NCBI GenBank assembly: GCA_012523975.1
Contig: JAAYSF010000040.1
Coordinates: 1-55,025, forward strand
Source of the DNA: Veillonellaceae bacterium
GTDB taxonomy: Bacteria > Bacillota > Negativicutes > JAAYSF01
Length of the DNA: 55,025 nt
Direction of reading: 5' to 3'
The translations under genes were made by a program, and so were the position numbers. A model generated the notes under the pieces. That model ran no database searches. It was given only the letters and a program-made list of their open reading frames with translations, and was not told where the DNA came from. Position 1 is the first letter of the stretch. Every line of letters begins with the position of its first letter. Shown piece by piece: positions 24,666-42,820 of this stretch.

Positions 24666-24703
24666 GGGGACAAGGGGACAAGGGGACGGTGGTAGTGTCT
24701 TGG
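24666..24703 (-). repeat. REP-like element 1
   Basis: On the minus strand this reads CCAAGACA, then CTACCACCGTCCCCT, then TGTCC, followed by a second CCTTGTCC copy. It shares its core with the repeats flanking the transposase gene at 25304. Confidence 0.75.
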
Positions 24704-24721
24704 ATACTTATAAGTTCCGCT

Positions 24722-24940
24722 TTAAGACTTATTTTTTTTGTAAATTAGCCAATGCTTAATAGCTATCGCTACTAAGCACGCTCCCACACCTAGGTCAGTT
24801 AAGGAAGAGGTTTCCATTTGAGAGTGGAATGCAATATAAAATACTCCCATAAAAATAAAAAACACATCTAAAATTTTCACGATATTAGCCTTGGGAGCAG
24901 TAGTAGGAGTTGGATTCTTTTGCTTCTTTTTTGATTTCAT
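24722..24940 (-). CDS. small membrane protein, two helices
   Basis: A 72-residue protein: a lysine-rich N-terminus (KSKKKQK), then two hydrophobic segments, VFFIFMGVFYIAF and GVGACLVAIAIKHW, and a lysine-rich tail. The ATG at 24940 follows GAGGTG. I do not recognise the family and no homologue can be checked. The element at 24666 lies just downstream. The 363 bases between it and the transposase gene hold one REP-like hairpin and no gene. Confidence 0.6.
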   Translation of the reverse strand: MKSKKKQKNPTPTTAPKANIVKILDVFFIFMGVFYIAFHSQMETSSLTDLGVGACLVAIAIKHWLIYKKNKS

Positions 24941-25230
24941 TTGGCACCTCACTTAATTGTTGATTATAGATTTTAAAATTAATAATCAGCAATAATTACT
25001 AACCGCTAAAAGCACAACCTAGCTGTTCGAAGAACTCTTAGATCCTTGGGCTTTTTTTCTGTCATAGGGGCAGATTCATATTGTGCCCAGTAAATATCGA
25101 AAACAGGTAGCGTTAGCGACTAGGTAAAGTAGCTGTAACTATAAATATATAAATATTATAGAGAATAGGCGGCACATCCTCTTTTATTTTATACTAGCTT
25201 TAAATAATGTCGGCAATTTTTTTATATGTC

Positions 25231-25259
25231 CAAGACAAGGGGACGGTGGTAGTGTCTTG
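25231..25259 (-). repeat. REP-like element 2 (left flank of RAYT)
   Basis: On the minus strand CAAGACA and TGTCTTG form a 7-bp stem enclosing CTACCACCGTCCCCT. Confidence 0.82.
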
Positions 25260-25303
25260 ATAAAAGTAATCTCAAATGGTAAGATTTAGGAGGGGTGAGC
25301 GAG

Positions 25304-26047
25304 ATGCCAAGAACTGCACGGGTAAAAAGTAATACTGATATATACCACATAATGATTCGAGGGATAGATAAGCAACTTATTTTAGTGGATGAGGAAGACA
25401 ATCAAAAATTAAAAGAAGTTTTGCGCCAATGTAAAGATATATGCGGATATGATCTTTACGCATATTGTTTCTTAGGTAATCATATTCATCTTTTAATCAA
25501 GGAGGGTAAAGAAAGTTTAGGCCAAATATTCAAGCGAATAGGATCTAGGTACGTATATTATTTTAATCAGAAATATAAAAGGATAGGTCATTTATTTCAG
25601 GATAGGTTCAAGAGTGAGCCGGTCAATGATGATAGCTATTTACTAACGGTATTAACTTATATTCACAATAATCCAGTCAAAGCTGGCCTAAGTAAAACGG
25701 CGGCTGAGTATCAATGGAGCAGTTATAATGAATATACGCAATCTAATAATCTGGTCAATGTTCAATTTGTGTTAGGAATGATAACCAGACAACAATTTAT
25801 AGATTTGCATAACGACGAAAGGAATGCGGATGTCTTAGATATTGCTGAGGATAATTTTAGAGTAACAGATGCTGAAGCTGTACTGATGATTAAAGAGATT
25901 TGTGGGCTAGATAGCAGCGAACTAGTAATGACGGACATAGGTAAGCGAAATTTATATATAAGGCAACTGCGAGAAAAAGGTTTATCAATTCGGCAAATTG
26001 CTAGAGTAACAGGAATTAGAAAGGGAATTATTGAAAAACTAAAGTAA
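25304..26047 (+). CDS. REP-associated tyrosine transposase (RAYT, IS200-like Y1)
   Basis: A 247-residue HUH single-strand transposase. The metal-binding HIH is at residues 60-62 (GNHIHLL), the start M-P-R-x-x-R is typical of the RAYT group, and the catalytic tyrosine is expected among Tyr83-Tyr86 in SRYVYYFNQKY or just after. The TYIHNNPVKAGL and YQWSSY blocks are family signatures. The C-terminus adds a helix-turn-helix-like GLSIRQIARVTG segment. AGGAGGGG precedes ATG 25304. It has no terminal inverted repeats of a classical IS; instead REP-like hairpins lie on both sides. It appears intact. Confidence 0.92.
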   Translation: MPRTARVKSNTDIYHIMIRGIDKQLILVDEEDNQKLKEVLRQCKDICGYDLYAYCFLGNHIHLLIKEGKESLGQIFKRIGSRYVYYFNQKYKRIGHLFQDRFKSEPVNDDSYLLTVLTYIHNNPVKAGLSKTAAEYQWSSYNEYTQSNNLVNVQFVLGMITRQQFIDLHNDERNADVLDIAEDNFRVTDAEAVLMIKEICGLDSSELVMTDIGKRNLYIRQLREKGLSIRQIARVTGIRKGIIEKLK

Positions 26048-26099
26048 GACACTACCACCGTCCCCTTGTCCTCATGGGGGCGTGGTAGTGTCCTTGTCT
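26046..26099. repeat. REP-like inverted pair (right flank of RAYT)
   Basis: Two copies in opposite orientation make a long hairpin: GACACTACCAC at 26048 pairs with GTGGTAGTGTC at 26082, with a further C/G-rich inner stem. It overlaps the transposase stop codon and could also terminate transcription. Confidence 0.82.
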
Positions 26100-26175
26100 G
26101 ATTTTGATTTTTAGAAGACAAAATCGTCGTCACTGTGTCTATTTTTCTATGATGGCAATTTTGGGAGTGAATTGC

Positions 26176-26493
26176 ATGTACAACCTAATCATGGAAAACA
26201 AATGGGCTATTTTATTTATCTTAGAAATTCTTGCTTGGTCTGCAACATTCTTAATGCTTTATGCAAGATACAAAATGCATTCGCAGTTTTGGTTTAAAGT
26301 AGCATCGGTGATACTGGTGCTCACTGGTGTTATTCCCCAAGTGCTCTTGGGTGTAGTAAATTTTGTTGCAACAAAAGAAATTGATTTGTTTACGAGCGTA
26401 ATTGTGCTGCTGATTATCTACGGACTAACCATAGGTCGAAAGCACGTTCAAAAGTTGGATTCTTGGGCAAAAAAGAAATTTAGAGGTAACTGA
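26176..26493 (+). CDS. small membrane protein, three helices
   Basis: A 105-residue protein with three hydrophobic segments: about residues 9-27, 37-60 and 70-88. It ends in a basic tail (KLDSWAKKKFRGN). The chosen ATG at 26176 follows GGGAG; upstream in-frame ATGs at 26152 and 26104 lack a binding site. No family is recognised. The following 247 bases contain one REP-like hairpin and no convincing gene. Confidence 0.6.
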   Translation: MYNLIMENKWAILFILEILAWSATFLMLYARYKMHSQFWFKVASVILVLTGVIPQVLLGVVNFVATKEIDLFTSVIVLLIIYGLTIGRKHVQKLDSWAKKKFRGN

Positions 26494-26613
26494 ATTGAAT
26501 ATCCTGGCAAGCGGACATTGTTTCGATGTGACCTCAATTTTTGCAATTGCAGGAATTGGGGATTTTTTTTTGCACAATAAAAAATACGCTATTTTCCGTG
26601 ATACAATTTTAGT

Positions 26614-26640
26614 GAGACAGTACCACCGTCCCCGTGTCTC
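26614..26640 (+). repeat. REP-like element 4
   Basis: GAGACA and TGTCTC form a 6-bp stem enclosing GTACCACCGTCCCCG. The core matches the RAYT-flanking repeats but the stem has a compensated base-pair change. Confidence 0.8.
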
Positions 26641-26740: not shown

Positions 26741-29700
26741 ATGAGCCAAACTGCAAATCGTCAGGCAGCAATTAGATCATTAAAAGGAAAGCTTGTGGCT
26801 GCTTATGAATATTTAGTCGAACATAATGATAAAGGGAACGCTGAGAAAGTTAAGCAGTTAGCAGGTAAATTAGTCAATGAGGAATTCGCTATTGCCTTTT
26901 GTGGGCATTTTTCAGCAGGAAAATCAACGATAATTAATCGTTTGATAGGAGAAAATTTATTACCGTCAAGCCCGATTCCAACCAGTGCCAATCTTGTAAA
27001 AGTCAAAGCGGGCGAAGAGTATGCCAAGGTATTTTTTAAAAATGAAAAACCTCGTTTATATCTTGCTCCGTATGATTATAAAATGGTAAAAAACTATTGC
27101 AAGGACGGGGATCAAATCCAGGCTATTGAAATTAGTCATTCTAATTCCCAATTGCCAAGTCACACTGTTATTATGGATACTCCCGGTATTGATTCAGCGG
27201 ATGATGCGCATCGTATTGCTACTGAGTCCGCCATTCATCTTGCTGATTTGATTTTCTATGTAATGGACTATAATCATGTCCAATCCGAATTGAATTTTAT
27301 GTTTACTAAAGAGTTAACAGAGGCTGGCAAAGAGGTTTATCTTGTTATTAACCAAGTGGACAAGCATTCCAATCAGGAACTTTCCTTTGCGGAGTTTAAA
27401 ACAAGCGTGGTTCAATCGTTCTTATCGTGGGGAGTAAAGCCAGCTGATATTTTTTATACCTCTTTAAAACAGGATGACCATGAATATAATCAATTTCCTG
27501 TGCTGCAGGCGTTTTTAGCAGAGCGGTTAAAGGAGAAAGATAACTTACTCCTTCAATCTATTTTTCATTCCCTGCAGAAAATTATCAAAGACCATGTGGA
27601 TTTAACAAACAAAAAGAATGAACAAGAGCTTCAGCCGTTCAAGGATATCCTAAATGAACTATCGGCTAAGGATCAGGAGGAGTTAGCGGATAACTACAGC
27701 AGGCTGATGGAAGAAAAAAACTCTTTAGGCGAAAGGCTCGAAAAGGCTGAAAGTGAATTTGATTCTGAAGTCAATAAAATCATGACAAACGCCTATTTAA
27801 TGCCATTTCAAACCAGGGCGCTCGCGGAAGCCTACCTTGAATCATGTCAGAGCGGGTTTAAGGTTGGCTGGCTGTTTACCAAACAAAAAACCCTTGCTGA
27901 AAGAGAAACGAGATTGAATCTTTTTTACCAGGGTATACTCGAAAAAACAAAATCACAGTTAGAGTGGCATCTTCGTGATTTTCTATTGCGGTTTTTAAAG
28001 GAAAAGCGGATTGAAAATAAAGAACTGCTTGCCAAAATCCAGAGCTTTACTGTTGGTTTTTCAAGCGACTTATTAGCAGCTGCGGTAAAACCGGGGGCGC
28101 GCGTATCAGACGATTCAGTTATAAATTACACTGATGGTGTGGCAAATGAAATTAAACGTTTGGCTAAAAGCGGTTTAGCTGAGCTAGAAATTGAAATACT
28201 GAATGCTTTACAGGACCAAAATACCGCTCTCCAAGTAAAACTAAACCAGAGATCCGAAAGCTTAAGGCGGTATATTAACGCACTTGAGCAGGTGAAAAAA
28301 TATGAATCAGCCAAGAGTCTTGAGCAAACGAAGCTCGAAAGGCTGCTTAGCGAGGCAAAAGGGTTAGCGGATGACTGTGTTCATTTATTTCATCCGGAAG
28401 AAGAGGATTTCGAGGTGGTATATGGGGAAACCGGGCGTGTAGAACATGTGCAGAAAAAACCAAATCTCCCGGTGATCAAGCCAATTCTAAAAGAAAAAAG
28501 GGCATTACCTGCTGAAGCATCAGATCGAATGAAACATACTGCTAAAAAATTAAAAAAGACGGCACAGCTTGTTCATCACTTACCAGGCTTTGCGAAGCTT
28601 GCAGCTGAACTGGAAGAAAAAGCCGCTAGATTAGAACACAAGGGGTTCACCGTTGCTTTATTTGGGGCATTCAGCGCCGGTAAATCCTCTTTTGCGAATG
28701 CGCTAATCGGAGAGAAAGTGTTACCTGTTTCACCTAATCCAACGACAGCAGCAATAAACAAAATAAAGCCGATTAATGAGTCGTATCAGCATGGGACTGT
28801 TCTCGTTAAGCTTAAAGAAGAAGGTGCGATGCTTGAAGATGTAAATCGTGCCTTAAAAATGTTTGATGTTCATGCTGAGAGCTTAGCTGATGCAAAGTCA
28901 ATAATAGAAGAAATCAATGTACATTTAGACCAGCAGGGTGCAGCCGAAAAGACAAATTATGCTTTTTTACAGGCATTTACATATGGGTATGCTGCTTTAT
29001 GCGAACAGCTAGGTACAATACTCCAAACCACGATCACTGAATTTGGCGATTACGTAGCAATGGAAGAGAAGTCCTGCTTTGTTGAATGGATTGATCTTTA
29101 TTATGATTGTCCGTTGACCCGTAAGGGAATTACTCTAGTCGATACCCCGGGGGCGGATTCAATTAATGCCCGTCACACAGGAGTAGCGTTTGACTTTATA
29201 AAAAACTCGGATGCGATTTTGTTTGTAACTTACTATAATCATGCATTTTCCAAAGCAGACCGGGAGTTTTTAATTCAGCTGGGACGTGTAAAGGATGCAT
29301 TTCAACTAGATAAAATGTTCTTTATTATAAATGCCATTGATTTGGCTGATAACGAGGAAGAAAAGGAAATCGTTGTTGAATATGTCCACGAGCAGCTTAT
29401 AAAATATGGAGTTAGAAATCCCCATTTATATCCATTATCAAGCTTAAAGGCACTTAAAGAGAAGCAAGAAAAGATAACTCTTCCCGTTTCAGGAATGCCT
29501 GCTTTTGAGGAAGATTTTTATCACTTTATTACCAATGATTTGGCTAACCTGGCGGTCGCAGCATCGGAGAATGAACTGAGCCGTGTTTGCCGTTTAGTAA
29601 CAAAGCTCATTGAAAGTACCAAGGAAGATGCTGCTGTTAAACAGCAAAAGCGGGTAAATATTGAGGCCGAGAAAACGGGCATACACGCATATCTTGAGCA

Positions 29701-30397
29701 GCAGACAGCCCAAGATTTAAAAAACCGCTTGTCTCAGGAAACAGAAGAATTAATCTATTATATCAAACAGCGGGTGTTTCTCCGTTTTAATGAGTTCTTC
29801 AAAGAAGCATTCAATCCTAGTGTGTTACGCGATGATGGCCGTGATCTGAAAAAAGCATTGCAGAGTGCACTTGACGAGTTACTCGACCAGATTGGATTTG
29901 AATTTGCCCAGGAAATGAGAGCAGCGACAGTAAGATTGGATCGCTTTGCTGAAAAAATAACAGTAGAGTATCAAGCGATACTTGTCGAAATGATTCGTGA
30001 GATTAATCAGGATTTATCTTTTTCGCTCTTTGAATTTAGTGATAAAGCACAAATTGAATTTGAAGCGGCTTTCAAAGATATTCAGTATGGGTTGTTTTCG
30101 AAAGCAATGGCTTATTTTAAAAATCCCAAAGCATTTTTTGAAAAACGCGAAAACAAATTAATGAGTGATGAGATTTATAGCGTGCTTGACAAAGCAGCAG
30201 ATGAGTATTTACAGAATGAGCAAAACCGGGTCCAGGCTCTATATGGAAATCTCATGGAGAGTGAATTTGAACATTTAATCTTGCAGATGGCAGAACAGGC
30301 TGATGACTTTTATTTAAGTTTGCTCTCAGCCTTAGACGGCGGAGTTCCAGCCGAACAGTTAATTGAGATTCATCAAAGCCTAACAGAGCTTAGATGA
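26741..30397 (+). CDS. two-GTPase bacterial dynamin-like protein (DynA type)
   Basis: A 1218-residue protein made of two fused dynamin units, the architecture of Bacillus DynA (YpbR), which tethers and fuses membranes and helps cells survive membrane stress and phage. Unit 1: P-loop GHFSAGKST (residues 55-63), switch SPIPTSAN, DTPGID and NQVDK. Unit 2, from about residue 640: GAFSAGKSS, SPNPTTAA, DTPGADS and NAIDLAD. Long helical stalk sections follow each GTPase, and there is no signal peptide. AAGGGG precedes the ATG. No stop or frameshift is seen, so it looks functional. The sequence looks more Bacillales-like than typical of Negativicutes, and it lies between REP elements and a tRNA scar, consistent with transfer; that is inference. 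Confidence 0.93.
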   Translation: MSQTANRQAAIRSLKGKLVAAYEYLVEHNDKGNAEKVKQLAGKLVNEEFAIAFCGHFSAGKSTIINRLIGENLLPSSPIPTSANLVKVKAGEEYAKVFFKNEKPRLYLAPYDYKMVKNYCKDGDQIQAIEISHSNSQLPSHTVIMDTPGIDSADDAHRIATESAIHLADLIFYVMDYNHVQSELNFMFTKELTEAGKEVYLVINQVDKHSNQELSFAEFKTSVVQSFLSWGVKPADIFYTSLKQDDHEYNQFPVLQAFLAERLKEKDNLLLQSIFHSLQKIIKDHVDLTNKKNEQELQPFKDILNELSAKDQEELADNYSRLMEEKNSLGERLEKAESEFDSEVNKIMTNAYLMPFQTRALAEAYLESCQSGFKVGWLFTKQKTLAERETRLNLFYQGILEKTKSQLEWHLRDFLLRFLKEKRIENKELLAKIQSFTVGFSSDLLAAAVKPGARVSDDSVINYTDGVANEIKRLAKSGLAELEIEILNALQDQNTALQVKLNQRSESLRRYINALEQVKKYESAKSLEQTKLERLLSEAKGLADDCVHLFHPEEEDFEVVYGETGRVEHVQKKPNLPVIKPILKEKRALPAEASDRMKHTAKKLKKTAQLVHHLPGFAKLAAELEEKAARLEHKGFTVALFGAFSAGKSSFANALIGEKVLPVSPNPTTAAINKIKPINESYQHGTVLVKLKEEGAMLEDVNRALKMFDVHAESLADAKSIIEEINVHLDQQGAAEKTNYAFLQAFTYGYAALCEQLGTILQTTITEFGDYVAMEEKSCFVEWIDLYYDCPLTRKGITLVDTPGADSINARHTGVAFDFIKNSDAILFVTYYNHAFSKADREFLIQLGRVKDAFQLDKMFFIINAIDLADNEEEKEIVVEYVHEQLIKYGVRNPHLYPLSSLKALKEKQEKITLPVSGMPAFEEDFYHFITNDLANLAVAASENELSRVCRLVTKLIESTKEDAAVKQQKRVNIEAEKTGIHAYLEQQTAQDLKNRLSQETEELIYYIKQRVFLRFNEFFKEAFNPSVLRDDGRDLKKALQSALDELLDQIGFEFAQEMRAATVRLDRFAEKITVEYQAILVEMIREINQDLSFSLFEFSDKAQIEFEAAFKDIQYGLFSKAMAYFKNPKAFFEKRENKLMSDEIYSVLDKAADEYLQNEQNRVQALYGNLMESEFEHLILQMAEQADDFYLSLLSALDGGVPAEQLIEIHQSLTELR

Positions 30398-32148: not shown

Positions 32149-32329
32149 TTAGGCACCTCGATTTATTGGATTTGATGATATTTTAACACAGTAATGATTT
32201 TTTTATCGGGTAAAAGAAGGGATGCTTATCATTTGGTTGGTCATGTTCAATTAATAATGTGGCCGAATGAAATCTGCAGGACAATGGTTCCAAGGAATTT
32301 TTGAATCATTCTATTTCTAGGAAGTTCAT

Positions 32330-32357
32330 GAAACAATGTCCCTGTCCCCGTGTTTTC
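32330..32357 (+). repeat. degenerate REP-like element 5
   Basis: GAAACA and TGTTTTC enclose ATGTCCCTGTCCCCG. The layout and the GTCCCCG core match the other elements, with changed but still pairing stem bases. Confidence 0.5.
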
Positions 32358-32383: not shown

Positions 32384-32429
32384 AATGGCATTCAAGAGGT
32401 CAGCGGTTCGATCCCGCTTATCTTCACCA
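32384..32429 (+). tRNA. 3' fragment of tRNA-Ala(GGC), integration scar
   Basis: About 46 bases matching the 3' part of tRNA-Ala(GGC): an anticodon loop with GGC and 3' anticodon strand (TGGCATTCAAG), variable loop AGGTC, T arm AGCGG-TTCGATC-CCGCT, acceptor strand TATCTTC and ACCA. The 5' half (acceptor, D arm, 5' anticodon strand) is absent, so this is not a working tRNA. A tRNA-type terminator follows 11 bases on. Such fragments are left where an element has integrated into a tRNA gene. Confidence 0.8.
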
Positions 32430-32440
32430 GAGAAATAATG

Positions 32441-32472
32441 GCTTGCGAGGTTTTTACTTCGCAGGCTTTTTT
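32441..32472 (+). terminator. terminator of the truncated tRNA gene
   Basis: GCTTGCGA pairs with TCGCAGGC (one G-U pair) around a 10-base loop, followed by six T residues. Confidence 0.78.
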
Positions 32473-32639
32473 GTTTGGTAAGACAAGACTAGCAGCGTAT
32501 TACCTGGAAAATAAAAGGTAGATGCAGCGTGTTGGCGAATAAAACTATTTTATTGAAGATAAAATAGTTTTTGCTGTGGATGCAACATGATACTTTGTAT
32601 TCTTTATATATAATAGTTATCGCGAAAGGATCTGAAAAG

Positions 32640-34112
32640 ATGTTAACTGGAGAAGTACGCAATAAGGTTGACAAGATATGGACAGATATATGGGCGGGAG
32701 GTATCACCAATCCGCTGACAGTAATTGAACAGCTTACTTATTTGATGTTTATCCGCTCGCTAGATGAGAAAGAGCTTGAAACGGAAACCTTTGAAGCAGT
32801 CAGCGGCGAAAAACTGCCAAAAATATTTCCGCAGGATGCAGAAGGGCAAGAGATGCGCTGGAGTAAGTTCAAAAATAAAGATTCCAGGTAAATTTTTGAG
32901 ATTGTCGGGTCAAAAGTATTTCCGTTTATTAAGGCGATGAACGGCGAGAATAAATCTGCTTTTTCCCGCTACATGCAAGATGCTATATTTTTAATTCCAA
33001 CTCCACAGGTATTGCAGAAGATTGTTACTGGCCTTGAAGATTTATATGAGCATGACATTAAAGACCTTGATATGCAGGGCGATTTATATGAGTATATGCT
33101 GGGCAAGTTGGCGACAGCAGGACAAAACGGACAGTTTAGAACACCTAAGCATATCCGCGACATGATGGTGAAGTTGGTAAAACCCGTACCAGATGACACG
33201 ATTGCTGATCCGGCTTGTGGTACGGCTGGTTTTCTGGTATCAGCGGCAGAATACATTAGGTCAAAGTACGAAGCCGACATGACAGCCGAACAATGGGAAC
33301 ATTTCGCAGGCGATATGTTTTCGGGCTATGATACTGATCGAACCATGCTGCGCATTTCGGCTATGAACCTGATGCTTCACTCTATTACCAAGCCTCATAT
33401 CGACTATGTGGACAGCGTTTCTAAAAATAATGCGATTGATTCGAAGTTTGACGTTATATTAGCTAATCCGCCTTTCACTGGCACTGTGGATGCGGAGAGT
33501 ATTCATGATAATTTAAAGGCTGTATGCAACACCAAAAAGACAGAGCTGTTGTTTGTAACTCTCTTTTTAAGAATGCTCAAAAAAGGCGGACGGTGTGCAT
33601 GCATAGTACCGGATGGTGTACTATTTGGCACTACGAAGGCCCATAAAGCGCTGCGCAAGGAATTGGTAGAAAACCATCATCTGCGGGCGGTTATCTCTAT
33701 GCCGTCAGGAGTGTTTAAGCCTTATGCTGGTGTTTCAACAGCAATATTGGTATTTACCAAAACAGGCGCAGGTGGTACTGACAAAGTATGGTTTTATGAT
33801 ATGAAGTCAGACGGATTCTCGCTTGATGACAAGCGTACAGATTTGGGAAATGAGGGCGATATTCCCGATATTATTGCTCGTTTCGGTAACCTTGCTGGGG
33901 AGGCAGATCGCAAGCCGACAGAGCAAAGCTTCCTAGTGGATAAAGCCGATATTAAGAAGAATGACTTTGATCTTTCTATCAATAGATATAAGCAAATTGA
34001 ATATGAGAAGATTGAATATGATGCGCCCCATGTGATTATGACTCGGCTGGATGAACTTAGTATTGATATAGCCTCCAAGATGGAAGAACTGAGGGGGCTT
34101 ATTGGTGAGTAA
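32640..34112 (+). pseudogene. hsdM: type I restriction-modification DNA methyltransferase subunit, interrupted by one TAA
   Basis: The coding frame runs 490 codons from ATG 32640 (after AAAGGA) but has one in-frame TAA at 32889-32891. The frame continues unbroken on both sides with family sequence: before it IWAGGITNPLTVIEQLTYL, after it IFEIVGSKVFPFIKAM, then PACGTAGFL (AdoMet site) and ANPPF (catalytic N6-adenine motif IV). The stop stands between codon 83 and 85, and the next ATG is at 32937. Because a TAA cannot encode selenocysteine, the simplest reading is a point nonsense mutation (one base from CAA or GAA). The downstream piece would lack the N-terminal helical domain needed for complex assembly. 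hsdS begins 8 bases before its end. Confidence 0.88.
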
Positions 34113-35187
34113 GTGGGAAAAGGCTAGGTTAGGAGATGTCTGCAAGATAAATATGGGTCAATCTCCAGATTCGTCGACATATAATCAAGCAATGGATGGA
34201 ATTCCTTTTTACCAAGGAAACGCTGATTTTGGGCAACGGTATCCTAATGCCCGTTATTACTGTAAGCAGCCCACAAAGTTGGCCAATAAAAATGATGTAT
34301 TAATATCAGTTAGAGCACCAATAGGAGCAGTGAATATTGCAACTGAGAAATGTTGCATTGGCCGAGGCTTAGCAGCAATTGCAGAAGTGGACGGAATTAC
34401 GAATTTTATGTATATTTATTTTTTTCTGAAGGCAAGAGTCGATGAATTAAATCTTAAAGGAACAGGTAGTACATTTAAAGCGATTAACAAGAATATTTTA
34501 CACGATTTGATAATCCCCCTCCCGCCCCTTGAAGTACAAAAGAAAATTGCCCAAACCCTTGACACTGCATCGGAACTGATAGCACTTCGTAAAAAGCAGT
34601 TGGCAGAACTGGATAATCTGATTAAGTCAGTTTTTTACGATATGTTTGGTGACCCTGTGACGAATGAGAAGGGGAGGTGGGACGTGAAAAAGTTAGGATC
34701 CATTAGTACTTTAAAATCTGGAAAATTTGTTTCATCTTCTGAAATACATGAATTAAGCTCCAAGCATTCATATCCATGTTTTGGTGGTAATGGTATTAGG
34801 GGTTATGTGGAGAAATACTCACATGAAGGAGAGTACTGCTTAATTGGGCGACAAGGAGCATTGTGTGGCAATGTACAACTTGCTCAAGGTAAGTTCTATG
34901 CAACTGAACACGCAGTTGTTGTAAGCCCAGTAATTACAATTAATACGAAATATTTACTTTACATATTAAAAAAATTAAATCTAAATAATTTGGCTTCAGG
35001 TGCTGCGCAACCTGGTTTAACAGTAGGAAAGCTCAATGATGTAGAAATTCCAATTCCACCGCTTCAATTCCAAAATCGTTTTGATAGTATTATACAAAAA
35101 ATCGAAGAACAAAAAGCCCTAGTCCAAAAAGCAATAGACGAAAGCCAATATTTATTTGACAGTTTAATGAACGAGTATTTCGAATAA
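34105..35187 (+). CDS. hsdS: type I restriction-modification specificity subunit
   Basis: A 360-residue DNA-recognition subunit with two target recognition domains, each followed by a conserved spacer helix: PLPPLEVQKKIAQTLD near residue 140 and IPPLQFQNRFDSIIQK near the end. The central repeat ends in the conserved MFGDP. The two recognition domains differ, so an asymmetric bipartite target is expected. The start GTG 34105 overlaps the hsdM stop by eight bases, giving coupled translation. Intact, and slightly shorter than average for the family. Confidence 0.93.
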   Translation: MSKWEKARLGDVCKINMGQSPDSSTYNQAMDGIPFYQGNADFGQRYPNARYYCKQPTKLANKNDVLISVRAPIGAVNIATEKCCIGRGLAAIAEVDGITNFMYIYFFLKARVDELNLKGTGSTFKAINKNILHDLIIPLPPLEVQKKIAQTLDTASELIALRKKQLAELDNLIKSVFYDMFGDPVTNEKGRWDVKKLGSISTLKSGKFVSSSEIHELSSKHSYPCFGGNGIRGYVEKYSHEGEYCLIGRQGALCGNVQLAQGKFYATEHAVVVSPVITINTKYLLYILKKLNLNNLASGAAQPGLTVGKLNDVEIPIPPLQFQNRFDSIIQKIEEQKALVQKAIDESQYLFDSLMNEYFE

Positions 35188-35205
35188 TATTTGAGGTGAT
35201 CGATC

Positions 35206-38200
35206 ATGTCTGCAAATTTTAAGTTTTTACAGGGTCAAGCCCAATATCAGCTGTTTGCGCCTGCGGCTATGGAAGCCGAGCAGGTACTTGCGACTTCGCC
35301 TGCCATGGCGGCAGTTGGAGCCAGAAAAGCGTTAGAGCTTGCGGTGAAGTGGGTATATTCTGCCGATAATACCATTTCTATGCCCTATAAAAACAATTTG
35401 CAGGCCCTAATTCATGAGCCTAGTTTCCGGTTTGCTTTAGATCATAAAACCTGGGGTAAACTGCCGTATATAATCAAATTGGGCAATTTAGCGGTACACA
35501 CCGAGAAGGCAGTAAGTTACAACGATGCCGTATTATCACTACGCGGACTGTTTGAATTCATACAATGGATAGACTACTGTTATGGGGCAGACTACCAAGA
35601 ACGTCAATTTGATGAAACAGCAATACCTCAGGGAAAAACTGTTATTGATAATAGTATCATTAAGCAGAAGGATTCTGAAATCGAAAAACTACTAGCGCAA
35701 ATTGCTGCGATGAGCGAAGCGCTGACCGCGCAGAAGGAACAGCATAAGGAAGAACGGGCGTTTACCCCTGAGGATATTTCCGAGTTCCAAACTCGCAAGC
35801 GTTATATTGATGTAGAATTAAAGCTGCTTAGCTGGGTATTTGGTGATGATGTTAAAGAAGAAGTAGAAGTAACAGGTATGCCTAACCATGAAGGAAAGGG
35901 CTATGCTGACTATGTACTATACGGTAAAGACGGCTTGCCGCTAGCAGTGATCGAAGCTAAACGCACTTCAAAAGATCCTAAAATTGGTACCCACCAAGCT
36001 AAGCTGTATGCTGATTGTTTGGAGCGTATGACCGGCAGACGTCCGATAATGTTTATGACCAACGGGTTTGAATTTTATATATGGGATGACTGTTCCGCAC
36101 CTCGAAGAAAGATCAGCGGTATCTTTTCTAAGGCAGATCTGGAAAAGTTAATGAACCGCCGTTCTCAGCGTAAGAATTTAGCTGAAGTTAAAATTCAGGA
36201 CAGCATTACTGACCGTTACTATCAAAAAGAAGCCATTCGTGCTGTGTGCGAAAATATCGAATCAGGTCATCGCAAATCACTGTTGGTTATGGCAACAGGT
36301 ACGGGTAAAACTAGAACTTCATCAAGCCTTACCGATGTATTGTCACGGGGTGGGTATATTACTAATACTCTGTTTTTGGCTGACCGGACGGCGCTAGTCA
36401 AACAGGCGAAGGATGATTTTAAAACTTATCTGCCTGATATGTCTCTTTGTAATTTACTAAACGGCAAAGAAGATAAAAATGCCAGAATCGTTTTTTCTAC
36501 CTATCCGACTATGCTAAATTCGATTGACACGGCGAAAAATGAAGAGGGAAAGAAACTTTTTACGCCAGCTCATTTTGATTTGATCATTATAGATGAAGCG
36601 CATCGTAGCATCTTTAAAAAATATCGGGCTATTTTTGAGTACTTTGACGGATATTTAGTAGGCCTAACGGCAACGCCCAAAACCGAAGTTGACCGCAACA
36701 CATATGATTTCTTTGAAATGGAAAACGGTGTGCCAACATATGCCTATGACTATGACACGGCAGTCTACACCGATAAGGTGCTTGTACCGTATCACAATAT
36801 CGAAGTGCGTACGAAATTTCTCGAACAAGGTATTACTTATGATGAACTTTCACCAGAAGATAAGGCAAGGTATGAAGAGGATTTCACTGACGAAGATGGC
36901 GAAATGCCGGACTTTATACCTTCACCAGCTATAAACGAATTTATTTTCAATCAGCAGACAGTTGATTATGTGCTAGAGCACTTGATGAATAAAGGACTAA
37001 AGGTAGCAGGCGGTGATAAGCTGGGAAAAACAATCATCTTTGCAGCTAATCATAAACATGCTATGTATATAGAGGATCGATTTAATAAACTGTACCCCCA
37101 GTACAAAGGACAATTTGCTCAGATTATTGATAACAGAACACCTTATGCCCATGATCGAATTGCCGATTTCAAAGTTGCTGACAGATATCCGCAGATAGCA
37201 ATTTCGGTAGATATGCTAGACACTGGGATTGATGTACCGGAAATCGTTAATCTAGTATTCTTTAAAAAAGTGCGGTCAAAGACAAAATTCTGGCAGATGA
37301 TTGGGCGCGGTACTAGACTGTGCAAAAATCTGTTTGGTCCTGCTCAGGATAAAGAGTGTTTTTATATCTTCGATTATTTAGGTAACTTTGAGTTTTTCCG
37401 CCAGAACCCTCAGGGTATAGAATCTCGGGACGCAGAAAGTGTTACTGAGGCAATCTTCAGCAAAAAAATAAGGCTCATCGTTCATCTGCAGCATGCTGCT
37501 TTTGTCGATGATGCCTACCAGAATTGGCGCAGTCAGTTAATCGAAAACGTTGTTTCACAAATAAAGGCGCTGAATATTGAACTTGTATCGGTCAAACTTC
37601 AACTACAGCATGTAGAAAAATATAAAGATAAAAATGTTTTTATCTGTTTGGACGATAATGATAAACATAACTTAATAAAATATCTTGCACCGCTTGTTTT
37701 TATGGAAGAACAAGACGAATATGCAAAAGGCTTTGATAATCTGATGTATGGATTAATGCTTGCCCAGATTGAGGCTTTGCCCCAGTTTAACAAAAGTAAA
37801 CGACAATTAACCCATATGGGGGTAAAACTTGCTAAAAAAATTAGTATTCCACAAGTAAAAGAGAAAATAGAAATAATCAATATGATTCAAAGTGATGAAT
37901 TCTGGCATAATCCCGATATTTTATCATTTGAATCCGTGCGGATTGCCCTTAGGGACTTAATTAAGTTTATTGTTGATACGGGCGGAAAAAATGTAATCTA
38001 TACTAACTTATCTGACGGCATTATTGCCGTCAGAGAAGGCGATCCATTAAATCCTCCCTATGACTTTGAGGATTACAAGCATAAAGTCAATCGCTATATT
38101 GAAATGAACAAAGATAACCTGGCTATCTTTAAGCTGCGGAATAATCTTCCGTTAACTTCAGAAGATTATAAAAGCTTAGAGCATGTATTGACGGGCGAAC

Positions 38201-38529
38201 TTGGTACAAGAGAAGATTATCAGCGGGTATTTGGCGATACACCGTTTGGTTTATTGGTGCGTAAAATCGGCAAGCTTGAACACGAAGCCGCTATGAAGGT
38301 GTTTTCAGAATTCATCAATGATCAGTCTCTGAATCAAAAACAAATTGTATTTGTAAAAAAGATTGTAGACTATATAGTACAAAACGGCTATTTTGAAAAT
38401 ATGGCCGAGCTTATGAAGCCGCCATTTGATAAGCCTGATAGTTTTATAAAGTTGTTTGACAAAACAAAACAGCAGCGGATTATGGAGTTAGTGACAGAAG
38501 TTAAAGAAAATGCCGTGAGGGTTGTTTAA
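35206..38529 (+). CDS. hsdR: type I restriction enzyme endonuclease/translocase subunit
   Basis: A 1107-residue motor and nuclease subunit. Order: an N-terminal DUF4145-like helical domain; a PD-(D/E)xK nuclease with ADYVLY and AVIEAKR near residues 247-265; a superfamily 2 helicase with Walker A MATGTGKT, IIIDEAHRS, GLTATPK, DTGIDVPE and MIGRGTRLC; and a C-terminal EcoEI_R_C-like region. The DUF4145 fusion is a known variant of this family. GAGGTGATCG lies before the ATG, 18 bases after hsdS. It is complete, with a terminator after it. Without a working HsdM the enzyme is not expected to cleave. Confidence 0.95.
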   Translation: MSANFKFLQGQAQYQLFAPAAMEAEQVLATSPAMAAVGARKALELAVKWVYSADNTISMPYKNNLQALIHEPSFRFALDHKTWGKLPYIIKLGNLAVHTEKAVSYNDAVLSLRGLFEFIQWIDYCYGADYQERQFDETAIPQGKTVIDNSIIKQKDSEIEKLLAQIAAMSEALTAQKEQHKEERAFTPEDISEFQTRKRYIDVELKLLSWVFGDDVKEEVEVTGMPNHEGKGYADYVLYGKDGLPLAVIEAKRTSKDPKIGTHQAKLYADCLERMTGRRPIMFMTNGFEFYIWDDCSAPRRKISGIFSKADLEKLMNRRSQRKNLAEVKIQDSITDRYYQKEAIRAVCENIESGHRKSLLVMATGTGKTRTSSSLTDVLSRGGYITNTLFLADRTALVKQAKDDFKTYLPDMSLCNLLNGKEDKNARIVFSTYPTMLNSIDTAKNEEGKKLFTPAHFDLIIIDEAHRSIFKKYRAIFEYFDGYLVGLTATPKTEVDRNTYDFFEMENGVPTYAYDYDTAVYTDKVLVPYHNIEVRTKFLEQGITYDELSPEDKARYEEDFTDEDGEMPDFIPSPAINEFIFNQQTVDYVLEHLMNKGLKVAGGDKLGKTIIFAANHKHAMYIEDRFNKLYPQYKGQFAQIIDNRTPYAHDRIADFKVADRYPQIAISVDMLDTGIDVPEIVNLVFFKKVRSKTKFWQMIGRGTRLCKNLFGPAQDKECFYIFDYLGNFEFFRQNPQGIESRDAESVTEAIFSKKIRLIVHLQHAAFVDDAYQNWRSQLIENVVSQIKALNIELVSVKLQLQHVEKYKDKNVFICLDDNDKHNLIKYLAPLVFMEEQDEYAKGFDNLMYGLMLAQIEALPQFNKSKRQLTHMGVKLAKKISIPQVKEKIEIINMIQSDEFWHNPDILSFESVRIALRDLIKFIVDTGGKNVIYTNLSDGIIAVREGDPLNPPYDFEDYKHKVNRYIEMNKDNLAIFKLRNNLPLTSEDYKSLEHVLTGELGTREDYQRVFGDTPFGLLVRKIGKLEHEAAMKVFSEFINDQSLNQKQIVFVKKIVDYIVQNGYFENMAELMKPPFDKPDSFIKLFDKTKQQRIMELVTEVKENAVRVV

Positions 38530-38612
38530 TAGACAGATATTATTTATTGCTTTGATAATTCAAATTATTAGTAAAAATGAAAACGTCTTCCAGATTTTTT
38601 TACAAAAATAGG

Positions 38613-38656
38613 AGATGGCTATTTGTCCAGTTATGGGCAAATAGCCATCTCTTTTC
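38613..38656 (+). terminator. rho-independent terminator after hsdR
   Basis: A perfect 14-bp stem GAGATGGCTATTTG/CAAATAGCCATCTC with a 12-base loop and TTTTC. The next 280 bases, to the antiporter stop codon, have no well-supported gene. Confidence 0.92.
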
Positions 38657-38938
38657 GTTTAAAGATTATTGCTCCCAAAGGGAGATGGAGTAATAAGCCT
38701 TGGGATGAAATTAATGAGAAGGTGCTAGTAATCATCAGATTATTGAACTATTAACTATTTTACTTTTAATCTCTTGCCCATAGGCATATACCCAAACGCC
38801 AAGTGTTAGTATTGGCAACATGCAACAAGGTTTGGTATGGCAGGGCCATTCTTTGCAAGACGAAAGATTGCAATATGACCCCAAAAAATATGAATAGAAA
38901 AAACTATATGTTTTTACGAAGAGTCAAGGTGTTATTGC

Positions 38939-40177
38939 CTATGACAAATTTTCTTTAGGAGATTGTCCTACGACAACATAAGAAACCTCACGTTGCATGC
39001 CATAATATTTTAGCAGTAGCGCAACGATAAAATTGAAGACAAAACAGCCGGCAAAGAAATACAAGGTAAGCGTATAGCCGCTGGTTGATTCCCGCAGCCA
39101 TGATACGAGAAATGGTCCTGCAACACCGGCCAGTCCCCAGGCAGTCAGAATCCTGCCATGAATAGCACTCAGTTTCCTGGTGCCAAAAATATCGCTAAGA
39201 TATGCCGGCATACAAGAAAAGCCGCCTCCATAGCAAGTAATGATTAGCAGCACCAGTGTTTCGAAAAAAATGGCTTCTGTTGTTGCAGCCAGTTTCCAAA
39301 ACGCAAGAGCTTCCAACAAAAAGAAAAGTGCATATGTGTAACCGCGACCAATATAATCTGAAAACGTTGACCAAAAGATACGTCCGGCACCGTTAAACAG
39401 GCCGATGATGCCAACCAGAGAAGCCGCTGCCATCGGGCTCATGCCGATTACTTCCTGTGCCATTGGCGAGGCCACAGCCAAAAGACCAATGCCACAAGTT
39501 ATATTTACGAAAAAAATAAACCACAAAGCACTGAATTGCCATGTTTTCAATGCCTCATTCTCGGTATAACCGTGCTGTATATCAGGACTTTGCTGCTTTG
39601 CATTATTATATTCTTCAGTTGGAGGTTTTAAATAAAGCGCGGATAATCCCATAACAATTATATATACGGTTCCGAGAATTAGAAAGTTTTCTACCAATCC
39701 ATAGGATGCTGTTAAACGTTGCATCAAAGGTCCTGCAATCAGGCTGGCAAAACCGAAGCCCATAATGGCAAGTCCTGTTGCAAACCCCCGGTGCCTTGGA
39801 AAATATTTAACCAGTGTTGAAACTGGTGTAATATACCCGATTCCCAAACCGATTCCGCCAATTACACCATAAAACAAATATAATAGTAGCAAACTATGCA
39901 AATGCAGAGCCAGTGCTGTGCCAAACATCCCAGCTCCCCAAAATAAAGCTGCAAATAACCCGCTCTTTTTGGGACCGTATTTTTCTACACAACTTCCCAA
40001 TAAACCTGCTGATAAGCCTAAAAATAAAATAGCCAGTGAAAATGTCCAAGTAGTTTCTTTCAAAGAAAAGCCCATGGTTTCCATAATCGGACGAACCAGT
40101 ACACTCCAAGCATAAACACTACCGATACTGATATGAATTCCCACAGCAGCAAGAGCAATAAGCCAGCGATTTCTCAT
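38939..40177 (-). CDS. OFA-family MFS transporter (oxalate/formate antiporter-like)
   Basis: A 412-residue permease with twelve predicted helices, of the oxalate:formate antiporter family of the major facilitator superfamily. The first helix begins GIHISIGSVYAWSVLVRP, typical of the family, and a PRHRGFATGLAIMGFGFASLIAGP loop follows. Members exchange oxalate, formate or other short carboxylates; the real substrate is unknown. ATG 40177 follows AGAAGGG by nine bases; an upstream longer frame lies in the leader. The leader carries a strong promoter and a probable ZTP riboswitch, so expression is expected to rise when one-carbon (10-formyl-tetrahydrofolate) supply is short. Confidence 0.9.
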   Translation of the reverse strand: MRNRWLIALAAVGIHISIGSVYAWSVLVRPIMETMGFSLKETTWTFSLAILFLGLSAGLLGSCVEKYGPKKSGLFAALFWGAGMFGTALALHLHSLLLLYLFYGVIGGIGLGIGYITPVSTLVKYFPRHRGFATGLAIMGFGFASLIAGPLMQRLTASYGLVENFLILGTVYIIVMGLSALYLKPPTEEYNNAKQQSPDIQHGYTENEALKTWQFSALWFIFFVNITCGIGLLAVASPMAQEVIGMSPMAAASLVGIIGLFNGAGRIFWSTFSDYIGRGYTYALFFLLEALAFWKLAATTEAIFFETLVLLIITCYGGGFSCMPAYLSDIFGTRKLSAIHGRILTAWGLAGVAGPFLVSWLRESTSGYTLTLYFFAGCFVFNFIVALLLKYYGMQREVSYVVVGQSPKENLS

Positions 40178-40223
40178 AAAAATCATCCCTTCTAAAAATA
40201 AAACTAAGAGATTTGCCAAAACG

Positions 40224-40324
40224 CAAAAAACCATCTGGGCATCATCTCTTTGCCCAGACGGTCGGCTTATTTGAACTCTGCAGTACACGTGGTCATTTCC
40301 ACTTAATCCGTCAGTCCTGCACAG
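40224..40324 (-). promoter_or_regulatory. probable ZTP (pfl) riboswitch with terminator
   Basis: On the minus strand: P1 TGCAG/CTGCA, junction GACTGACGG, P2 GTGG/CCAC, a linker, then GCCGACCGTCTGGGCA, the conserved 3' element of the ZTP/pfl aptamer. The 3' element is also the 5' arm of an 11-bp terminator stem (40231-40241 with 40251-40261, one mismatch), followed by six T residues. Aptamer folding and terminator formation therefore compete. The family call is by eye, from memory of the consensus. Confidence 0.75.
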
Positions 40325-40346
40325 TCTATGAACTTTTAATATAGCT

Positions 40347-40375
40347 ATTATAACAATCGATCAGAATGGTGTCAA
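40347..40375 (-). promoter_or_regulatory. sigma-A promoter of the OFA transporter leader
   Basis: On the minus strand TTGACA and TATAAT are 17 bases apart, both perfect consensus. About 160 bases of leader follow before the ATG. Confidence 0.92.
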
Positions 40376-40381
40376 TGCTGT

Positions 40382-40570
40382 TATTTACATGTATGTGTTT
40401 TGGAGATGGAGCGGTCATTTTCGGCCTATATTGTAGCTCAATACAAGCCCCATAAAAGCAAGTGCAATGAGTCTGACATTGATAATGACTTGAATCGGCA
40501 GTTTCGAAAGGAAACGCCACTAGAAGCTGTCGTAAGGTTAATGTACTTAAGGTGCTTCATTTTTTCGTGA
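40382..40570 (+). pseudogene. fragment of an IS3-family transposase (OrfB)
   Basis: An open frame of about 60 codons encodes SAYIVAQYKPHKSKCNES, then LNRQF and ETPLEAVV, matching the start of the IS3-family OrfB integrase region (usual form: KFKPHKDTCNES, then L-x-R-x-F, then VVSDLTYV). The frame ends at TGA 40570 and the DDE catalytic core is absent. It is a scar of an old insertion between the antiporter and the next gene. Confidence 0.7.
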
Positions 40571-40614
40571 GTGTTTTGTGCTAAAGTGGCTCACTTATAT
40601 ATTAGCGTGTATAC

Positions 40615-40643
40615 TTGACTTACCACAATATGTAAATTATAAT
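40615..40643 (+). promoter_or_regulatory. sigma-A promoter of the thioredoxin-domain gene
   Basis: TTGACT and TATAAT separated by 17 bases, about 105 bases before the start codon. An inverted repeat ATAACG-N6-CGTTAT at 40659-40676 lies just after the expected transcription start and may be an operator. Confidence 0.82.
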
Positions 40644-40747
40644 AAAAGAAACTAACGAATAACGATTATCCGTTATCGATTATATAACGTATGTAAACCC
40701 ATCACCAAGCAAATCCTAAACAGTAGCAAAAAAACGAGGTGATACTA

Positions 40748-42820
40748 ATGTCTACCAAGCACGTTAACCACCTAGCCAACGAAAAGAGTCCATACCTACT
40801 TCAACACGCCCACAACCCAATAGACTGGTATCCCTGGGGCGAAGAAGCTTTTGCCAAAGCCAAGGCTGAAGACAAGCCGATATTTTTAAGTATCGGCTAT
40901 AGTACTTGCCACTGGTGCCATGTAATGGAGAGGGAGTCCTTTGAGGATGAAGCGGTAGCAGAGATTCTAAATCGACATTTTGTGTCGATAAAGGTTGATC
41001 GCGAGGAACGGCCGGATGTTGATCATATTTATATGGAGGTGTGCCAAGCGCTGACGAGATCGGGCGGTTGGCCGTTAACTATTATTATGACGCCGGATAA
41101 AAAACCCTTTTTTGCGGGAACTTATTTTCCGAAAACCAGTAAGTACGGGCGTCCGGGGCTCATCGATTTACTTAAAGCTATAAGCCAGCGATGGCAGGAA
41201 AAGCGAGAAGATTTAATTGGTTTTAGCGATGAGATCGTCGAACTGCTTCAGCACCAGGAAAAAGCGTCGGTCGATGCTACGTTGTCAAAAGGCTTGCTTG
41301 ATACTGCGTTTGAACAGCTTGAACGGGACTTTGATCCACGATATGGAGGCTTTTCTAAGGCGCCTAAGTTCCCTACGCCGCATAATATGCTCTTTCTATT
41401 AAGGTACTGGAAACATAATAATAATGCTAAGGCCCTAGAAATGGTTGAAAAAACTCTTACTGCTATGCGGAAGGGCGGAATATACGATCATCTTGGTTAT
41501 GGATTTTCCCGGTATTCGACAGACGATAAATGGCTGGTGCCGCATTTTGAAAAAATGCTCTATGATAATGCCCTGCTATGCCATGTCTATCTCGAAGCTT
41601 ATCAATGCACCGGCAATAAGGACTACGCTAAGGTAGCCGAGCAAATACTTACTTATGTTATGCGCGATATGACCAATGCCGAAGGTGGTTTTTATTCAGC
41701 GGAAGACGCTGACTCCGAAGGTGAGGAAGGTAAATTTTATGTATTTACCAGGCAGCAGATTTTAGATTTACTAGGCGAAAAAGACGGAACACTCTTCGCT
41801 GATTTTTACGATATAACACCACAAGGCAATTTTGAACATGGTTCAAGTATTCTAAATTATGTTGACAATGATATCGAGTCTTACGCTGCCAGAGTAGGTC
41901 TTGAAGCAGTGGATTTAACCAGAAAGCTAGAAGAGTGCAGTGCTAAGCTGTATCGGTATCGGGATAAACGGGTCCACCCGTATAAGGATGACAAAGTATT
42001 AACGGTTTGGAATGCCTTAATGATTTCAGCTTTTGCCAAAGCAGCTCGAGTTTTGGATGGTGCCTGTTATGCCGAGTATGCTGAACGGGCTTTTAAGTTT
42101 ATTAAAAATAAGCTTATCAGCAAGGACTGTAGGCTGCTGGCGCGCTATCGCGATGGCGAAGCAGCGCACTTAGCATATTTAGACGATTATGCATTTCTAT
42201 TATGGGCCTTAATAGAGCTATACGAGACAATCTACTCGCCGCTATATATAAAATGGGCCCAAGATGTTTGCCAAGAGATGCAGAGGTTGTTTTGGGACGA
42301 GAAAAACGGTGGTTTTTTCTTCTACGGCATAGACGGTGAACAGCTTTTGACAAGACCAAAAGAAATTTATGATGGAGCAATTCCGTCAGGCAATTCAGTG
42401 GCTGCTTTTGCTTTGCTAAGGCTAGCAAACATTACCGGCAAAGGTCAGTTTCAAAGTTTGGCAGAAAGGTTATTGCAGACTTTTGCCGGACAGGTGGAAA
42501 AAATTCCACGGGCGCATACTTTTTACCTTATAGCGTTAGACTATCATTTGTCGGCACAGCGCAAGATTGTTATAGCAGGAACGGGCGCTTCTAAAGACGT
42601 CTGGAATATGCTATCTGCTGCAGGTAAGCGCTTTTTGCCTAATACAGTAACAGTTTTTAATGATACAAGCCAAGCTGATATTATGCGAAAGGTGATACCG
42701 GAGGTCGTGGATCAATTACCGGTTAACGGTCAGACCGCGGCTTATATTTGTGAAAACTTTACTTGCCGGCCGCCTATAATCGGTATCGAGAACTTTATAA
42801 AGCAAATCAATAAGATTTAA
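40748..42820 (+). CDS. thioredoxin domain-containing protein, YyaL/SPATA20 family
   Basis: A 690-residue cytoplasmic protein with an N-terminal thioredoxin-like domain (DUF255) carrying CHWCHVM (Cys54 and Cys57) and a C-terminal (alpha/alpha)6-barrel resembling N-acylglucosamine 2-epimerase, with [10 protein letters not shown] and YDNALL blocks. YyaL-family proteins are widespread, and their biochemical role is not settled. The start is ATG 40748 after CGAGGTGA; the in-frame GTG at 40739 lies in that binding site. It has its own promoter and is monocistronic before ferritin. Confidence 0.92.

Follow-up and report, generated by a model that had tools for sequence, protein, structure and literature searches.

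An orphan 3′ half of tRNA-Ala(GGC) with its terminator beside a type I restriction–modification locus in a Veillonellaceae bacterium

A 3′ half of a tRNA gene that stands apart from any intact copy raises the question of what severed it and which of its flanks, if either, is foreign to the genome. We examined such a case in a 55,025-nucleotide stretch of DNA from a Veillonellaceae bacterium (the window), which is contig C40 of a draft genome of 2.47 Mb in 99 contigs. In the lambda-type att geometry, an element targeting a tRNA gene (tDNA) leaves a 3′ tRNA half at its distal end. The features around the fragment are collected in Table 1; the nearest genomes compared are two members of the same family (G001 and G002), referred to below as the family mates.

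Table 1. Features flanking and including the tRNA-Ala(GGC) fragment (positions in the window)
Feature	Position	Strand	Remark
DynA, double dynamin-family GTPase	26741..30397	+	native left flank; 86% identical to family mate G001
REP-like dispersed repeat	32329..32355	+	27 bases; recurs at several places in the genome; ends 29 bases left of the fragment
3′ half of tRNA-Ala(GGC)	32384..32429	+	anticodon loop, 3′ anticodon stem, variable loop, T-arm, acceptor 3′ strand, CCA
Trailer and intrinsic terminator of the tRNA fragment	32430..32472	+	stem 32440-32467, T run
hsdM, type I restriction–modification	32640..34112	+	in-frame TAA at 32889-32891
hsdS, type I specificity subunit	34102..35187	+	
hsdR, type I restriction subunit	35206..38529	+	best relatives in other families, 84%
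MFS transporter	38939..40288	−	unmatched in both family mates at E ≤ 1e-40
dsbH-like gene and upstream region	40614..42820	+	DNA similarity to G001 resumes here, the first point right of the fragment

The fragment and the resident tRNA-Ala(GGC)

The fragment reads AATGGCATTCAAGAGG...TTCACCA, with the GGC anticodon at 32387-32389, a complete T-arm with a 5-bp stem, and a 3′ acceptor strand ending in CCA. The initial annotation had it running for 46 bases from the anticodon to CCA; the 3′ half does extend to CCA, but its identity to the tRNA sets in at position 31, where the 5′ strand of the anticodon stem ends. The 5′ half is indeed missing, as had been noted, with 24 of the 30 bases upstream differing from a tRNA 5′ half, and what is left is a 3′-terminal tRNA part without its 5′ part, i.e., a displaced tDNA fragment. 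Since only half a gene is present, it is expected that neither ARAGORN nor an Rfam search at the gathering threshold called a tRNA in the window. Against a 3′-half consensus that we wrote from the intact tRNA-Ala(GGC) genes of the class, 45 of 46 bases match, the single mismatch falling in the acceptor strand; U70 of that strand fits tRNA-Ala. When used as a single query, the fragment with its terminator matches tRNA-Ala(GGC) of other genomes with E-values down to 1e-33, a similarity far beyond chance. The terminator that the initial annotation placed behind the fragment is real and strong by fold computation (−19 kcal/mol, z −5.6, with none of 200 shuffles attaining equal stability).

A search of the whole genome with the 35 terminal bases, at up to 3 mismatches, recovered nothing but the fragment and a single intact gene, C71:107151-107226, which ARAGORN calls tRNA-Ala ggc. 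The initial annotation would be refuted, on its own terms, if the genome had no intact tRNA with an identical 3′ end, and none exists: the resident gene differs from the fragment at 3 of 46 bases, two of the three differences forming a paired T-stem change common to both family mates, and it is followed by another terminator. The local alignment score of the fragment's terminator (of a possible 46) is 36 with G317, 35 with G032 and 32 with G020, compared to 15 with the resident tRNA-Ala; as controls, the best score among 65 tRNA trailers of the genome (the resident tRNA-Ala included) was 20, and shuffles reached at most 14. The fragment and terminator resemble genes of other families (92-94%). 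Thus, given the three base differences and the different terminator, the fragment was not copied from the resident tRNA-Ala, and, judged by its sequence, it is of a type foreign to this genome.

The resident gene is followed by electron-transfer genes in the same order as in G001, with no integrase at the locus, and the more than 100 kb after it on C71 contain no further copy at up to 3 mismatches; this locus looks unoccupied and conserved. An intact cognate tDNA with a matching 3′ end, in the same orientation and replicon region as the fragment, as would define a tDNA island, is therefore lacking in this genome. Beyond it, the trailer pattern was found in three records among genome contigs, all of them MAGs, and in none of the viral contigs searched. 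A plasmid search returned only short, tRNA-length matches (45-54 bases among the matches listed), which we take for putative intact tRNA-Ala genes.

tRNA-Ala(GGC) as an integration target in related genomes

The fragment query matched 57 of 60 relatives at E ≤ 1 and 175 of 380 genomes of the class at E ≤ 1e-8; most of these are presumed to represent intact tRNA genes, the loci that were fetched being the ones checked. The fetched loci provided 65 distinct 3′-half sequences, a set that is not random, many loci having been fetched because searches listed two copies on one contig. They comprise 55 intact genes, one gene cut by a contig end (G032) and nine halves without a 5′ part, namely those of the window, G009, G117, G317, G319, G305, G021 and G304, the last with two, one of them degenerate (7 mismatches). 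In eight of the nine cases an intact copy precedes the half by 2.7-45 kb on the same strand of its contig; the window copy is the exception. The fetched second copies that lie elsewhere, on other contigs or far away (G058, G312, G315), are intact genes. In G315 we also observed a tRNA-Ala-like gene (locus L213, position 4096) with a deviant anticodon-loop sequence and possibly a CGC anticodon.

In three genomes a PF00589 integrase gene is convergent with the intact tRNA-Ala, at distances of 128 bases in G009 and 85 bases in G319 and with an overlap of 37 in G305, while G021 has a split integrase (its N-terminal part in the profile scan). Wherever the breakpoints of halves in other genomes are clear, they fall in the anticodon stem-loop, the same zone as in the window fragment; the fragment is thus broken where integrases act on this same gene in G009, G319 and G305. 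These cases bear out the premise of the initial annotation that tRNA-using tyrosine-recombinase elements leave such 3′ halves. As tRNA-Ala(GGC) is cut at its anticodon loop by integrase-bearing prophages of several related genomes, with 3′ halves of just this kind left behind, an att-site scar is, by analogy, the best reading of the fragment.

Other relatives point to what may become of such elements. In the intervals of G304 and G317, no integrase was recognised in ORF lists read by eye, so decayed or integrase-free relics have precedents; in G317, G304 and G032, no integrase adjoins the tRNA either. In contig C24 of G304 (locus L128), an intact tRNA-Ala(GGC) at about 2300 is followed at about 6015 and 8781 by two successively more degenerate 3′ halves, a series that resembles a stack of old integration scars with no integrase recognised between them.

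The flanks of the fragment

The absence of an integrase from the window, already remarked in the initial annotation, holds for the entire contig: a profile search with PF00589 gave five matches in the genome, none of them on C40, and a scan of 40 window ORFs detected no tyrosine integrase. Nor was a right-hand att partner or core repeat found beyond chance to the right of the fragment in the window. Two further marks of a tDNA island, a tyrosine integrase gene inside it and a second att copy bounding it, are hence not seen here. A 29-residue match to the C-terminus of the G305 integrase (E 0.004) was considered as an antisense integrase remnant over the fragment and rejected, as it is due to the tRNA itself; the antisense frame closes soon after the terminator.

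The initial annotation had assigned the foreign DNA to the left (the RAYT/DynA/CGGC/ric stretch) and not to the restriction–modification side. For DynA, this is contradicted by its close homologue in G001 (Table 1), which shares a contig there with a homologue of the window's first gene, next to tmRNA. G001 also has a Ric, of 65% identity but in another gene context, and the Ric, CGGC and DUF2164 genes are at most putatively native. DynA also matches the PADLOC LeoA and LeoBC profiles, so the dynamin pair could conceivably act in defence. Inverted REP-like units of the GGGGACGGTGGTAGTGTC type flank the RAYT transposase gene (25295-26047), within 24671-26639, and this REP type differs from the one beside the tRNA fragment. 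We considered the latter REP unit as the break point itself and rejected it, since it ends 29 bases from the fragment and is thus not the junction.

To the right, the genes for HsdM, HsdS and HsdR lie together, as in a type I restriction–modification system. About 83 codons into hsdM comes the in-frame TAA, at a position where all three full-length relatives (G324, G041 and G045) are open, and, hsdM being interrupted, the system may be inactive here. HsdR has matches in 70 of 380 genomes at E ≤ 1e-50, the best with identities of 84% (families f33 and f23) and 82% (f24), whereas in the family mates G001 has none at that threshold and G002 only one of 36%. For HsdM, the identity to the G324 protein is 90%. 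At E ≤ 1e-40, the MFS protein is matched in 178 of 380 genomes (best 77%) and in neither G001 nor G002; its gene could alternatively have been lost in both. A ZMP/ZTP riboswitch, scoring above the Rfam cut-off, precedes the MFS gene (40245-40328, minus strand). Immediately right of the terminator, 32477-32600 had no match in the 380 genomes at E ≤ 1e-8.

Beyond the block, protein similarity to G001 carries on from dsbH to YjeF. The 84 bp at 40534-40617 are 90% identical to a sequence that immediately precedes a short tyrosine recombinase gene on the genome's own contig C46, and this match ends where the dsbH similarity to G001 starts; on examination it yielded no island end tied to the tRNA fragment. 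On contig C60 of G001 (locus L120; 2-132, 1216-1521 and 7894 onward), the dsbH upstream region and first ~77 codons recur as partial copies ahead of the intact gene, and a large serine recombinase gene (PF07508) and an AAA_15 gene separate copies from one another; G002 likewise has partial dsbH copies. The 5′ end of dsbH has the look of an integration hotspot in its own right.

The two sides could not be told apart by base composition. As the family mates lack the hsd and MFS genes or have only distant versions of them, the closest matches lying in other families, and as DynA on the left is native-like and the resident dispersed repeat ends 29 bases left of the fragment, the foreign side is more likely the right one, contrary to the original assignment of that side as not foreign. 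The block whose affinities appear foreign to the family would then be 32384-40613, about 8 kb.

Origin of the fragment

The reading we favour, with a probability of roughly one half, is that the locus holds an orphan displaced tDNA fragment, probably imported with hsdMSR and perhaps with the MFS gene from another family of the class. A tyrosine-recombinase element in the former host would have split tRNA-Ala(GGC) at the anticodon loop, its far end retaining the tRNA 3′ half and terminator; this distal piece, joined to an hsd-bearing segment, would later have entered the present genome between DUF2164 and dsbH. The fragment would accordingly not have been produced at the genome's own tRNA-Ala(GGC), and the imported segment would now lie between a native DynA side (to ~32355) and a native dsbH side (from 40614). 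That the fragment and the hsd genes arrived together and that an integrase acted in an earlier host is inferred, and so is the route of transfer. Against this reading, none of the four nearest hsd systems (G324, G311, G041 and G045) is accompanied by a tRNA-Ala piece in the stretches fetched, so the fragment and hsd are only presumed to have been linked before the transfer; a right-hand att partner and matches to 32477-32600 are likewise missing, and the closest trailers come from MAGs, with no integrase next to the tRNA in G317, G304 and G032.

The counterproposal that the fragment is the distal scar of an element in the genome's own tRNA-Ala, occupying the DNA to the left, as initially annotated, accords with the geometry of tDNA integration, with a 3′ half bearing its terminator and with the full arrangement seen in several related genomes. 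It is nevertheless very unlikely, and largely refuted, by the differences of the resident gene in 3 of 46 bases and in its terminator, by the unoccupied resident locus on another contig with no other copy in the following stretch, and by the native-like DynA. An element on the right is another candidate: the fragment could be the integrase-side end of an hsd-bearing element inserted at a non-tRNA site, with the 3′ half and terminator as its own attP and its integrase since lost. Here the hsd and MFS genes look foreign and the left flank native, and such trailers sit on intact tRNAs in several families (G317, G032 and G020, with a fragment in G304), as expected if elements carry trailers. We still consider it unlikely, as the right side offers no integrase or remnant, the antisense frame being closed, and no repetition of the core at any possible right end. 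It is likewise doubtful that tRNA-Ala(GGC) elements carry the 3′ half along with a terminator and replace the two whenever they integrate, with the window fragment as a travelling trailer stranded with its hsd cargo; if that were true, the terminator behind a tRNA would record the last element and not host ancestry.

Site-specific recombination might also have played no part, the fragment being the remnant of a second, acquired or ancestral, tRNA-Ala gene truncated by ordinary deletion or a REP/RAYT event. The nearby REP unit, the evident RAYT activity in the genome and the two or more intact copies in some relatives (G058, G312 and G017) are compatible with this, but the break lies in the narrow interval of bases where element-made halves elsewhere are also broken, which makes such a history quite improbable. 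Retention for function, either as a terminator insulating the hsd operon or as the source of a small tRNA-half-like RNA, would suit the strength of the terminator and the promoter-like site at 32587-32614, between it and hsdM. However, the plus strand from 31775 to the fragment has no promoter-like site, the fragment departs from the consensus at one base, and an interrupted hsdM should entail little selection, so we give this idea hardly any credence. An assembly chimera, with a foreign contaminant joined to this genome, is conceivable in a draft of 99 contigs, but the family-like genes on both sides of the block (DynA; dsbH to YjeF) render it highly improbable.

Under the favoured reading of an imported orphan fragment, at most the terminator would still be active, and could protect the hsd operon against read-through from the left; in particular, it may stop transcription ahead of the promoter-like site. 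Because both the cognate tRNA and an integrase are absent, we would file the locus as a scar rather than an island.

The use of a displaced tDNA fragment to recognise a tRNA-targeted genomic island is the Islander principle (PMC4383910). Like the fragments outlined there, the window copy has a 3′ tRNA part broken in the anticodon loop, with CCA and terminator kept; unlike the islands, it has no cognate intact tRNA in the replicon region and no integrase, and its type is foreign to the resident tRNA. The prophage-type elements of G009, G319 and G305 share its target, break zone and distal 3′ half, but keep the intact tRNA and a convergent PF00589 integrase 41-45 kb upstream, neither of which the window has. 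The relics of G304 (two successive 3′ halves) and G317 are alike in having no integrase recognised beside the tRNA or between the copies, but are still downstream of an intact tRNA, whereas the window copy lies elsewhere. Finally, the hsdMSR systems of G324, G311, G041 and G045 are of the same kind (HsdR identity 78-84%), but differ in that hsdM is interrupted in the window and a tRNA-Ala piece lies nearby, none being present near those systems within the stretches fetched.

The kind of object is thus well known, only its orphan, foreign-type context being mildly unusual, and the significance is modest. Within that compass, 3′ tRNA halves of the sort used for mapping islands can occur without their tRNA and point to another donor; geometry alone, by which the element is always upstream of the half, can therefore misassign the foreign side. 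Within the class, probably Negativicutes, tRNA-Ala(GGC) is documented as a repeatedly used integration site.
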